From Nitrospirales bacterium (GTDB lineage Bacteria > Nitrospirota > Nitrospiria > Nitrospirales > UBA8639): a stretch of DNA of 64,000 nucleotides. The stretch's first letter is position 1. Each line of letters starts with the position of its first letter. The translations under genes and the position numbers were made by a program. The notes under the pieces were generated by a model, which saw only the letters and a program-made list of their open reading frames with translations, had not been told where the DNA came from and searched no databases. Below, piece by piece: positions 14,085-18,209 of this stretch. The stretch is from positions 620,001 to 684,000 of the forward strand of contig JALDRJ010000002.1 in assembly GCA_031315865.1 (NCBI GenBank). The letters run 5' to 3'.

Positions 14085-15194
14085 ATGACTCCCCAACATT
14101 CCTACAGACTGTTATTCCCCTTCCTGCTGATGCTCTTAGTAGGGTGCGGTGGAGGACCTCCTGAAGCACCTTCACCATTACCTCCATCGGCCAGTGACCT
14201 GGATCTCCTCGGTCTTATACGCTTGTGTAATACGGCGGAGATGGTACGAAATTTGGAAGATCAAATAAATTATCAGCAAAGACCATGGGGAAGCGGAGAA
14301 GAATGGTCCACCGAAACTCACATTCGACACAAGAAGAAACAGTGGCTGTTTTTTAACAAGGATAAGGTCTTGGTCGCCCTGGTTACAAGCTATCCTTTAG
14401 GGTTGAACCTCGAACCATACCCCGTTTTGCGAGGCACTCTATCTCAATTAACCCCGGCACGCGAATTCTTCACGAATCTTGATTCCCTCATCAGTGAGAC
14501 ACATTCTGATACGATCAAACTATACCGGACAGGTGATGAAAAAACGACGACCCAATACCTCGTCCGGCAAAACGACGATGGCGAGCAGGACTTGATGGTC
14601 GCTGTCATCGTCCTGGACCCCTATGAAACGCTACTTGACGGAGCACAGCCAGAATTTTTATCTCCTATAAAACCAGTCGACAATGAACCGAAGACTCAAC
14701 ACTTTCTCGCATCTCAACAATTTGCTAGAGGCGAAATCGCCCTCTTTGAATCTTGTCCTGGCAAAAAGCCTGATATCGCGATAGACGCCTACAGTCTAGC
14801 CATCAAATTTGGCCTCGGCGATGCCAAACAAGTCGCTGAAGCCCATCATCGCCTGGGGCTTGCCTTGCGGGATGAAGGAAAACTGACAGAAGCACGGGAA
14901 GCCATCGAAGAATCATTAACGATCCAACCCTATTCGCCTCATGTATTAAATAGTCTGGGCATCGTCCTCATACAATTGAAAAAACCTTCGCAAGCGATTA
15001 CGACGTTCGAAAAAGCCATCACCTTACAACCCAACTACGCGCGAGCACGGTTTAACTTGGCGCAGGCCTATGAACAGACCAATCCTCGTCGGGCCATCGA
15101 TGAGTATGAAACCTATCTCGCTCTCGTCCAACATATCCCCGAAGAATCCACTCGCGCCGCGCTCGCCAAAGACCGTCTTGAGAAATTGAAGTGA
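14085..15194 (+). CDS. TPR-repeat lipoprotein of unknown function
   Basis: A 369-residue protein with a lipoprotein signal: hydrophobic LLFPFLLMLLVGC (about 9-21), lipobox LVGC and then a Gly/Pro-rich linker. The C-terminal third holds tetratricopeptide repeats (ADAKQVAEAHHRLGLALRDE region, HVLNSLGIVLIQLKKPSQAI, YARARFNLAQAYEQ). These normally mediate protein contacts. The middle (about 40-210) is not recognised. It is expected to be anchored in the outer or inner membrane facing the periplasm. It follows tRNA-Val and overlaps the next gene by four bases (GTGA). Confidence 0.8.
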   Translation: MTPQHSYRLLFPFLLMLLVGCGGGPPEAPSPLPPSASDLDLLGLIRLCNTAEMVRNLEDQINYQQRPWGSGEEWSTETHIRHKKKQWLFFNKDKVLVALVTSYPLGLNLEPYPVLRGTLSQLTPAREFFTNLDSLISETHSDTIKLYRTGDEKTTTQYLVRQNDDGEQDLMVAVIVLDPYETLLDGAQPEFLSPIKPVDNEPKTQHFLASQQFARGEIALFESCPGKKPDIAIDAYSLAIKFGLGDAKQVAEAHHRLGLALRDEGKLTEAREAIEESLTIQPYSPHVLNSLGIVLIQLKKPSQAITTFEKAITLQPNYARARFNLAQAYEQTNPRRAIDEYETYLALVQHIPEESTRAALAKDRLEKLK

Positions 15195-15799
15195 AAAAAA
15201 AATATTATGCCGTTCGACGGGGCCGTCAGGTTGGTGTCTTCCTGACATGGCCGGAATGTCAACGACAGATCGCCCAGTTCTCCGGGGCCGAATACCAATC
15301 ATTCCCAACCAGGGAAGAAGCGGAAGCGTATGCTTTTCCCGATTCTTCAAACATTGTTGAAGACTCGGAGGATATTCAAAATACGATTGACATTTGGGTG
15401 GATGGATCGTGCATACCGCGCACTGACGGCTCACTACGTCTCGGATGGGCCTACCTTGCTCGTAAGAATGGACAGGAAATTCATCGTGATCGCGGAAATG
15501 ACATCCCTCAGAGCGCCTGTCACCATCGAAACGTCGCTGGCGAAATCATGGCTGTTCGTAAGGCGATCGAATGGTGCCAAACTCAACCTATCACCAACCT
15601 CCGCGTTCATTATGATTACCAAGGACTAGCCAGCTGGCCAACCTACGCCTGGAAGAGGAATACTCCGTTCACTCAGGAGTATGCAGAAATGGTTCGAACG
15701 TCAGGGATGACCATAGAATGGGTTAAAGTTAAGGCGCACAGCGGAGATCTCAATAATGAACTCGTCGACCAAGAAGCGAAGAAAGCTGCCTTAGAGTGA
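15191..15799 (+). CDS. rnhA: Ribonuclease HI with N-terminal viroplasmin-type domain
   Basis: A 202-residue enzyme that cuts the RNA strand of RNA-DNA hybrids. Residues 1-50 form a short RNA/DNA-hybrid-binding (caulimovirus viroplasmin-like) domain: YYAVRRGRQVGVFLTWPECQ and the FPTREEAEAY tail. Residues 65-202 are the RNase H fold. Likely catalytic residues are Asp71 (VDGS), Glu118 (GEIMA), Asp142 (YDYQG), His183 (AHSGD) and Asp193 (ELVDQEAKK). The start is a GTG overlapping the stop of the upstream TPR gene, followed by nine A residues (GTG AAA AAA AAA), a possible slippage site. Translational coupling is likely. Confidence 0.9.
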   Translation: MKKKYYAVRRGRQVGVFLTWPECQRQIAQFSGAEYQSFPTREEAEAYAFPDSSNIVEDSEDIQNTIDIWVDGSCIPRTDGSLRLGWAYLARKNGQEIHRDRGNDIPQSACHHRNVAGEIMAVRKAIEWCQTQPITNLRVHYDYQGLASWPTYAWKRNTPFTQEYAEMVRTSGMTIEWVKVKAHSGDLNNELVDQEAKKAALE

Positions 15800-15942: not shown

Positions 15943-16929
15943 CTAAAGCTTGCCTTCACCCTTGAGATAACTACGGAAGCGTCCCATGAGTTCTTCACCG
16001 AGAACGCCAACGTCTGGCTTGGTCTTCATGTAATCACGAATTTCTTCTAACCGGTGTTCGGCTTGGTCATTCCCTTTCAAACGTTTGACCTTCACCAACG
16101 CATCATCAAACGCATCAAACGTCAGCTCTTTGTACCCGAACGCGCGAATACGTTTCACTGCTTTCATCATGGCTTCGTTTCGAAACACGGTGAGGTGTTC
16201 CGAGTCGATTTCTTCAAGCCCTAGCTTTCGCGCTCGCCGTTCCGCGGCTTTTCGAATGCCGCTTCGCACAAAGTCCGGCGAGGTCTGAAGCCGTTTCCAG
16301 GCCTCATCTGACCATGCCACTCGAGATTGCGGAGCTTCCCATAGACAAAGCAAAGACTCTGCGTCAATGAGCGTGATGCCTTGCTCTCGGGCCAGATCTT
16401 CGGCATCATGCTTCAACATGTCCGAGACAAACTCCTTAGCCATGGGGGGAGAATCCTCGATTTTTTTACCCAACAGCGCCACCGCATCCTCGGTCCATTC
16501 CAATGGGGGACCAATCTGCTCCTGTATATCGCCTAAAGCCTCTACTTTCTCAAAGAGCTCGACGTTCACTTCCATGTGCCCACGTTCTTTTGCGATATCT
16601 GCCGCAATTCGCTTAATCATATCCCGCATAAACTCGGGGACTGTTTCAAGCCGTTTTTTCGCTTCAGCCGTCCATGGAAGTTGACCCTGTTCTATATCTT
16701 GAGCAGCCTGACTGAGACCCGCTTCGCCACCCATCTGCCCCATCATCTGCTGTTTAAACTGATCGAGAATCTCGACCGTAATTTGAGGATAGCCAAGTTC
16801 TTTGGCTTTTTTGATGGCCAACCGCTTGACCATACCTCTCAAAAAGAATGGAGCACGCTCCAGACGCTTCAGCGCATCATCCGTCCAGACGACTTCCTGG
16901 TCAGTGATGTTTTGATCAGATGAACTCAT
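15943..16929 (-). CDS. Tandem PCP_red-domain protein
   Basis: A 328-residue soluble protein made of repeated units resembling the PCP_red domain (the C-terminal domain of the BchB/ChlB subunit of light-independent protochlorophyllide reductase). Units begin at about 14, 84, 142 and 203. They share a pattern of Trp-Thr/Ser, then A..RL...P.F.R....R.A...A...G...I..E (for example VWTDDALKRLERAPFFLRGM and LPWTAEAKKRLETVPEFMRD). A fifth partial unit is at 255-285. No catalytic NifDK-like part of the reductase is present, and no other bacteriochlorophyll genes are seen. The domain's role outside chlorophyll synthesis is unknown to me. The gene follows the HU/IHF gene by 29 bases and is probably the last gene of this operon. 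Confidence 0.75.
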   Translation of the reverse strand: MSSSDQNITDQEVVWTDDALKRLERAPFFLRGMVKRLAIKKAKELGYPQITVEILDQFKQQMMGQMGGEAGLSQAAQDIEQGQLPWTAEAKKRLETVPEFMRDMIKRIAADIAKERGHMEVNVELFEKVEALGDIQEQIGPPLEWTEDAVALLGKKIEDSPPMAKEFVSDMLKHDAEDLAREQGITLIDAESLLCLWEAPQSRVAWSDEAWKRLQTSPDFVRSGIRKAAERRARKLGLEEIDSEHLTVFRNEAMMKAVKRIRAFGYKELTFDAFDDALVKVKRLKGNDQAEHRLEEIRDYMKTKPDVGVLGEELMGRFRSYLKGEGKL

Positions 16930-16958: not shown

Positions 16959-17237
16959 TTATTGGTTTAATAATTCCTTGATTTCTTTCCCGGCTTTAAA
17001 GAATGGCATACGCTTCTCCGGCACTTCTACCGTTTCCCCGGTCTTCGGATTACGACCTTCCTTCGTTTGCCGAACTCTCAGGCGGAAGCTACCGAACCCG
17101 CGTATTTCAGTTTTTTCACCATTTTTCAACGAATCCCGAATGGAATCAAACAGGGTATTGACCACAAGCTCCGCTTGTCGATGGCTAAGCGTGGGAGCCT
17201 GCTCACTTAACCTTTCAATCAGGTGAGCTTTTGTCAT
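16959..17237 (-). CDS. ihfB: Integration host factor / HU family DNA-bending protein
   Basis: A 92-residue DNA-bending protein of the HU/IHF family. Seen are the N-terminal helices (MTKAHLIERLSEQAPTLSHR), GFGSFRLRVRQTKEGRNPKT with the DNA-intercalating NP, and the C-terminal FKAGKEIKELLNQ. The arrangement after rpsA (with sppA between) matches the rpsA-ihfB neighbourhood in many bacteria and favours IHF-beta over HU. It carries GAAGGAGG before the start. The exact paralogue (IhfA, IhfB or HU) cannot be settled from sequence alone. Confidence 0.88.
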   Translation of the reverse strand: MTKAHLIERLSEQAPTLSHRQAELVVNTLFDSIRDSLKNGEKTEIRGFGSFRLRVRQTKEGRNPKTGETVEVPEKRMPFFKAGKEIKELLNQ

Positions 17238-17309: not shown

Positions 17310-18209
17310 TCAAAAAACCATTAAGTACATCAATGGATTCCAAGATGTTTGCAAAATGACCGATGACGCGTTTCCAAGAAAAGAGCTTTCCAGGAAATCT
17401 CTGAAAGAAAACTGCCTGGTCGGCTCCACGACCCGAGGTTCACCTTCAATTCCGCTGAGTTTACCTGCGAGCTGGATCGCGTCAGTCAGATCACCCAGTT
17501 CATCAACCAATAAGGAATCTTTGGCTTGACGTCCGGTAAAAACCCGCCCATCCGCCAACAGTTCGACATCCGCGATATCCAAGGACCGCCCCTCCGCCAC
17601 CGCTTCAATAAACTGCTGATGCACATCATCCATGACCGACTGCAAAATTTGGCGATCTTCGGGCTTCATTTCTCGAAAGGGTGAACCAAGATCCTTGTAG
17701 CGTCCACTCTTGATGACAAAATTTTTGACCCCGACTTTCTTGAGCAATTCTTCAAAATTCGCCATTTGCATGATCACGCCAATGCTTCCAGTCAACGTGC
17801 CCGGGTTGGCCAGCACACGATCACTCGCGACAGCGATATAATATCCTCCGGAAGCCGCCACAGTTCCCATGGACGCCACAACGGTTTTGTTGTAGTCAGA
17901 TTTCACGCGTTTGACCGCGTTATAGATCTCCTGGGATGGCGCCACTCCCCCACCAGGACTATCGATTCGAACCACGATAGCCTTCACCATAGGGTCTTGG
18001 CTGAAATCCTGCAGTTCTGTGATCGTTTGCTTGGAGTCAAGGATCGGACCTTCGACCCGAACGACAGCAACCTGCTCTTTCCCATAGGAGGCCATGTCGG
18101 GCAAGAGCGCTTTTCCCAGCCACGTCAAGACGACCGCCGCAAGAAAAATCCACAGCACGCGCCTCCACCAGGAATGGCGTGGTCGTTCATGGGGATGAGA
18201 ATCAGACAT
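17310..18209 (-). CDS. sppA: Signal peptide peptidase SppA (S49 family)
   Basis: A 299-residue membrane-anchored serine protease that cleaves leftover signal peptides. One N-terminal transmembrane segment (WWRRVLWIFLAAVVLTWLG, about 14-32) is followed by a single S49 domain. The catalytic Ser is in LTGSIGVI and the Lys base probably in SGRYKDLGSPFR; VRIDSPGGGVAPSQEIY and ASGGYYIA are also typical. It is the short single-domain type, not the 618-residue E. coli form. It is 56 bases after rpsA in the operon. Confidence 0.92.
   Translation of the reverse strand: MSDSHPHERPRHSWWRRVLWIFLAAVVLTWLGKALLPDMASYGKEQVAVVRVEGPILDSKQTITELQDFSQDPMVKAIVVRIDSPGGGVAPSQEIYNAVKRVKSDYNKTVVASMGTVAASGGYYIAVASDRVLANPGTLTGSIGVIMQMANFEELLKKVGVKNFVIKSGRYKDLGSPFREMKPEDRQILQSVMDDVHQQFIEAVAEGRSLDIADVELLADGRVFTGRQAKDSLLVDELGDLTDAIQLAGKLSGIEGEPRVVEPTRQFSFRDFLESSFLGNASSVILQTSWNPLMYLMVF

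Follow-up and report, generated by a model that had tools for sequence, protein, structure and literature searches.

The PCP_red domain (Pfam family PF08369) has so far been regarded as part of a single chlorophyll enzyme, the C-terminal domain of the BchB/ChlB subunit of dark-operative protochlorophyllide reductase. The stretch of Nitrospirales DNA analyzed here, 64,000 nucleotides long and called the window below, contains a gene for a protein formed of tandem PCP_red domains. This raises the question of what function such an array has in a bacterium that makes no chlorophyll. The best named relative of the genome is 88% identical. Fusions and neighbors of the array gene in related genomes suggest that the array helps to handle heme-type pigments for an unusual respiratory chain. 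A literature search on the function of PCP_red, PF08369, or the Nostoc protein Asr4154 found nothing relevant in the papers searched. PF08369 is among the Pfam families employed for screening genomes for phototrophy (PMC12815261).

Four PCP_red repeats and a C-terminal tail

The original prediction of four to five PCP_red repeats stands for four of them. The complete protein matches PF08369 with 159.6 bits. When the repeats are scored one by one against the cut-off of 32.5 bits, repeats 1, 2, and 4 pass and repeat 3, in which the alignment of the repeats places the expansion, does not (Table 1). The proposed fifth, partial repeat near residue 255 was rejected: the profile of repeats 1–4 scores the real tail no better than shuffled tails, and a Pfam search of the last 79 residues gave zero matches. 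A profile of the tail itself matches proteins from loci L081–L083, which are fusions with radical SAM enzymes, and L177; it matches L087–L089 weakly. The tail thus recurs in the radical SAM fusions and, weakly, in Usp fusions.

Table 1 Features of the array gene and its upstream neighbors in the window
Feature	Position	Strand	Basis
PCP_red-array gene (P0001)	15943..16929	(-)	Open reading frame with ATG start, 328 residues; PF08369, E = 1.8e-47
PCP_red repeat 1, residues 15-59	16753..16887	(-)	57.3 bits, above cut-off; Foldseek match to 2kru
PCP_red repeat 2, residues 86-128, with the nearly invariant His118	16546..16674	(-)	49.6 bits, above cut-off
PCP_red repeat 3, residues 145-192, degenerate, with 8-residue expansion	16354..16497	(-)	25.2 bits, below cut-off
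PCP_red repeat 4, residues 206-247, most conserved repeat	16189..16314	(-)	49.8 bits, above cut-off; conservation
Unnamed C-terminal helical tail, residues 250-328	15946..16182	(-)	No Pfam match; helices predicted with low confidence
ihfB (integration host factor beta-like), directly upstream of the array gene	16959..17237	(-)	NF001222, 117.6 bits, cut-off 115
sppA-like gene, further upstream within the conserved run, context only	17310..18209	(-)	Synteny across named loci

Each repeat retains a tryptophan: W15, W145, and W206 are present in all 12 compared orthologues, which are as little as 43% identical, and W86 in 11 of them. His118 is also kept in 11. No conserved tetrapyrrole ligand is evident in these 12 sequences; they share no conserved cysteine, and only His118 is nearly invariant. 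As judged from the sequence, a direct iron-sulfur role of the array protein is unlikely, because its single cysteine, C195, is not conserved among the orthologues; the array would thus not itself be an iron-sulfur protein. The Pfam search found no nitrogenase-like domain in it, and the full-length BchB/ChlB equivalog model gives 97.8 bits against a cut-off of 509.

The AlphaFold2 model of the array protein has a mean pLDDT of 66.7, and each repeat is modeled as a strand-helix-helix-strand-helix unit. The top PDB match of the model in Foldseek is 2kru, the NMR structure of the PCP_red domain of BchB, with an rmsd of 1.3 Å over 52 columns and a probability of 1.00. The free-standing Nostoc protein 2l09 was also matched with a probability of 1.00. 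Confidence in the models is moderate to low, and in the tail it stayed low when repeat 4 and the tail were modeled with 71 sequences. In its predicted structure, the array protein has the PCP_red fold. A histone-like or AAA-lid fold had been suspected from the helix pattern, but the Foldseek matches beyond PCP_red are weak and have large rmsd values.

According to both profile and predicted fold, the repeats are the same domain as the C-terminal one of BchB/ChlB (PF08369; 2kru). However, the array protein contains four tandem copies and lacks the nitrogenase-like domain, and its genome contains no gene with such a domain. Asr4154 of Nostoc (NMR structure 2l09) is likewise a PCP_red protein without a reductase, but it consists of one 62-residue domain rather than an array with a tail.

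Genes adjacent to the array

All Nitrospirales genomes in the phylum sample carry a single-copy orthologue of the array, at about 70% identity. The integration host factor gene previously noticed next to the array is genuine (Table 1), and a gap of 29 bases separates the two genes in the window. In 75 named Nitrospirales loci, ihfB is positioned immediately upstream on the same strand and ends at most 31 bases before the array gene. Four of the other five loci start with the array gene or shortly before it; in the fifth, L134, the 10 kb upstream of the array gene hold sppA without an ihfB match. The conserved gene run in Nitrospirales is aroA-cmk-plsC-rpsA-sppA-ihfB-array, and the array gene is probably co-transcribed with ihfB. 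An Rfam search of the array region gave zero matches, and promoter-like sites in it are not in excess over shuffled sequence. Convergent to the array gene, window positions 15191-15799 encode an RNase H whose N-terminal part is a Cauli_VI (RNase H1 N-terminal) domain.

The array orthologue of other families in the class is accompanied by genes for Mrp and Zn-ribbon/PCP_red proteins (L078, L080) or by those for Usp-PCP_red and radical SAM proteins (L079, L080). Because array orthologues elsewhere in the class adjoin these other genes, the ihfB link is local to the order Nitrospirales. As ihfB is conserved as an operon partner only there, it is weak evidence for the function of the array. A gene for a PF14518 protein (heme-oxygenase-like diiron, CADD-like) is located between the Zn-ribbon/PCP_red and array genes in two loci (L078:5731-6501, L080:7567-8253). 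Another PF14518 gene, at L185:7299-8003, adjoins a Zn-ribbon/PCP_red gene.

PCP_red proteins in genomes without the reductase

The genome of the window encodes 12 PCP_red domains spread over five open reading frames, and all 60 of the nearest genomes carry PCP_red, mostly with 10–12 matches. PF00148 (Oxidored_nitro; BchB/BchN/Nif) has zero matches in the genome. This agrees with the earlier description of a free-standing array without a reductase and rules out chlorophyll synthesis by a protochlorophyllide reductase of the dark-operative (DPOR) type. The sampled Nitrospirales, relatives of nitrite oxidizers, make no chlorophyll, and PF08369 alone should not be taken to indicate phototrophy.

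Besides the array, the genome encodes a radical SAM/SPASM protein that ends in a PCP_red domain and a Zn-ribbon-like protein with two PCP_red domains, the gene of which directly follows mrp. A second Zn-ribbon-like/PCP_red protein is encoded next to a bd-like oxidase and DUF420, in a cluster that includes alternative-NxrC-like and cytochrome c genes as well. The gene overlapping the radical SAM gene (L010:7025-9130) encodes a protein of 701 residues with two Usp domains, a PCP_red domain, a rubrerythrin-type rubredoxin, and a further pair of PCP_red domains. Family f9 contains a fusion of Usp-PCP_red to a segment that resembles the array and matches the tail weakly. Some members of the HemQ/ChdC-chlorite dismutase family from family f16, another family of Nitrospirota, carry a single PCP_red domain N-terminal to the chlorite dismutase/HemQ-type domain (L180:6551-7678, L181:6036-7061); they are proteins separate from the array and match HemQ models below cut-off only.

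Two further arrangements were observed. A leucyl aminopeptidase (M17) with two PCP_red domains is present in one genome (L184:5755-7911), where the fusion could be genuine or due to the assembly. At L172:6004-8000 and L174:7874-9884, a B12-binding radical SAM gene is directly followed by the gene of a small free-standing PCP_red protein. In family f23, the B12-radical SAM protein that accompanies the small PCP_red protein was considered as BchE and rejected, with 56 bits against a cut-off of 481.

Proposed radical SAM partner of the array

In family f15, a deeper family of Nitrospirota, the array forms the C-terminus of a single radical SAM/SPASM open reading frame of 706–730 residues (L081, L082, L083; two genera). 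These fusions were read as single open reading frames in three draft genomes, and fragmentation affects several genomes of families f9, f14, and f15. The PCP_red domain of the radical SAM protein itself serves as the first repeat, and is followed by array repeats 2–4 and the tail: the first repeat of the fusion is closer to the PCP_red domain of the radical SAM protein (48%) than to array repeat 1 (42%), and the second is nearest to array repeat 2 (54%). The fusions retain the CxxxCxxC and SPASM cysteines, and their best NCBIfam matches are NirJ2, of the heme d1 type, and the heme synthase AhbD. The gene next to the fusion encodes the protoporphyrinogen oxidase HemY in all three cases (291–305 bits, cut-off 97.9).

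The array of family f15 is thus fused to a member of the superfamily of radical SAM/SPASM proteins that contains heme b synthase AhbD and NirJ2. The partner radical SAM protein in the genome of the window contains the motif C59NLKCDHC (CxxxCxxC) and the SPASM domain PF13186, and is nearest to NirJ2 (327.6 bits) and AhbD (306.8 bits). The equivalog thresholds are above 500 bits, and with scores under both cut-offs the matches do not assign it a substrate. In a FastTree phylogeny of 29 sequences, the PCP_red-bearing radical SAM proteins form one clade with support of 1.0, beside a clade of AhbD-like proteins, most of which are encoded within hemE-hemH-hemY operons. Proteins of both kinds are present in five genomes (G113, G130, G145, G157, G061). 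In contrast to AhbD and NirJ2, the array is no radical SAM protein itself, and its partners with C-terminal PCP_red domains are distinct from the AhbD of hem operons. A Usp gene is positioned directly upstream of the PCP_red radical SAM gene in 15 of the 16 loci where that gene was found.

Association with a bd-like respiratory module

Among 108 genomes from outside the class, 12 contain the array. All 12 encode a PCP_red radical SAM protein (Fisher p = 6.5e-13, phylogeny ignored) and 10 a bd-like oxidase (Fisher p = 4.7e-9, phylogeny ignored); the co-occurrence of the three is partly due to shared ancestry. In the genome of the window and in loci L081, L177, L186, and L187, the surroundings of the array or other PCP_red genes include bd-like, cytochrome c, and NxrC-like genes. 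The bd-like/NxrC cluster of the genome of the window resembles the bd-like_3/bd-like_4/alt_NxrC_2 cluster described in Nitrospira, and the bd-like cluster is also common to Nitrospina and anammox genomes (PMC6606698). The function of bd-like oxidases in nitrite oxidizers has been described as enigmatic (PMC3578206; see also PMC6606698). The PCP_red proteins are unstudied candidate maturation proteins for these oxidases.

Possible function of the array protein

The gene context argues fairly strongly for a link between the PCP_red array and tetrapyrroles, and from it we infer binding and a mechanism. BchB, the radical SAM proteins of AhbD/NirJ2 type, and the HemQ-type proteins place PCP_red on three catalytic folds that are unrelated but all act on tetrapyrroles. 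In the bacteria considered here, the domain has expanded to 12 copies per genome in the absence of the reductase, and is attached to several unrelated enzymes with a tetrapyrrole theme. This theme gives PCP_red a testable general function. The original prediction had left the choice between a tetrapyrrole- and an iron-sulfur-linked role: the fusion beside hemY and the HemQ-type fusions favor the former, whereas the non-conserved cysteine speaks against the latter, although the partners of the array are iron-sulfur proteins.

Our best explanation, held tentatively with a probability of about 0.45, is that the array is a non-catalytic scaffold or carrier of four PCP_red domains and a helical tail, which acts in trans with the PCP_red radical SAM protein of AhbD/NirJ2 type and with Usp-PCP_red in heme supply or modification for the bd-like module. 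Each PCP_red domain would contact a tetrapyrrole or a tetrapyrrole-loaded partner. The array, which in Nitrospirales is encoded apart from the radical SAM enzyme, would gather the heme precursor or hand it over to the radical SAM step, and the product would serve the bd-like respiratory module. The position of the Nitrospirales array gene with ihfB and housekeeping genes, and not with heme genes, speaks against this explanation.

It is possible, although rather unlikely, that PCP_red is a general helical protein-protein module and that the array scaffolds a maturation complex of radical SAM, Usp, and oxidase proteins without contacting a tetrapyrrole. The lack of cofactor-ligand conservation would fit such a module, as would the many architectures, not all of them tetrapyrrole-related, in which PCP_red is combined with Usp, rubredoxin, Zn-ribbon, or aminopeptidase or neighbors Mrp or a B12-radical SAM protein. 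However, BchB, the AhbD-like radical SAM proteins, and the HemQ-like proteins are unrelated, and yet tetrapyrrole chemistry is common to all three. We regard as improbable that PCP_red is instead a docking module for P-loop ATPases carrying iron-sulfur clusters, and not a tetrapyrrole binder. It would then aid the docking of BchL on BchNB in DPOR, and the PCP_red proteins of Nitrospirota would dock Mrp/NBP35, which would deliver clusters to radical SAM and respiratory proteins. Mrp is a distant relative of BchL/NifH, the Zn-ribbon/PCP_red gene adjoins mrp in families f1, f3, f5, f6, f7, and f15, and PCP_red partners are iron-sulfur enzymes; nevertheless, the array is joined to a radical SAM protein and not to Mrp, and no homologue of Mrp or BchL is known as a partner of the HemQ-type fusions.

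A nucleic-acid or nucleoid role, in which DNA or RNA would be bound by basic repeats and the array would share an operon with ihfB because of a common function, is very improbable. Repeats 1 and 4 and the tail are basic, and ihfB directly precedes the array gene on the same strand in the 75 Nitrospirales loci. However, the array protein as a whole is acidic, with a pI of 5.4, Foldseek found no nucleic-acid-binding fold in its model, and outside the order the ihfB linkage gives way to Mrp, Usp-PCP_red, and radical SAM neighbors in other families of the class.

Ferrochelatase in array-bearing genomes

A broader scheme, which we consider improbable, is that the PCP_red proteins constitute a route of late heme synthesis or heme modification around the PCP_red radical SAM protein that has not been described before, supplying the bd-like/alternative-NxrC module and permitting the loss of ferrochelatase in some lineages. 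The idea that the array generally acts as a simple replacement of ferrochelatase (hemH) was rejected, since hemH is retained in most genomes with the array and the sister family carries both. PF00762 ferrochelatase was found in none of the 41 sampled genomes of the taxonomic family of the window, whereas 31 of the 32 sampled genomes of the sister family contain it. Among the high-quality genomes of the phylum sample that lack hemH, the array is present in 11 of 12, a count uncorrected for ancestry.
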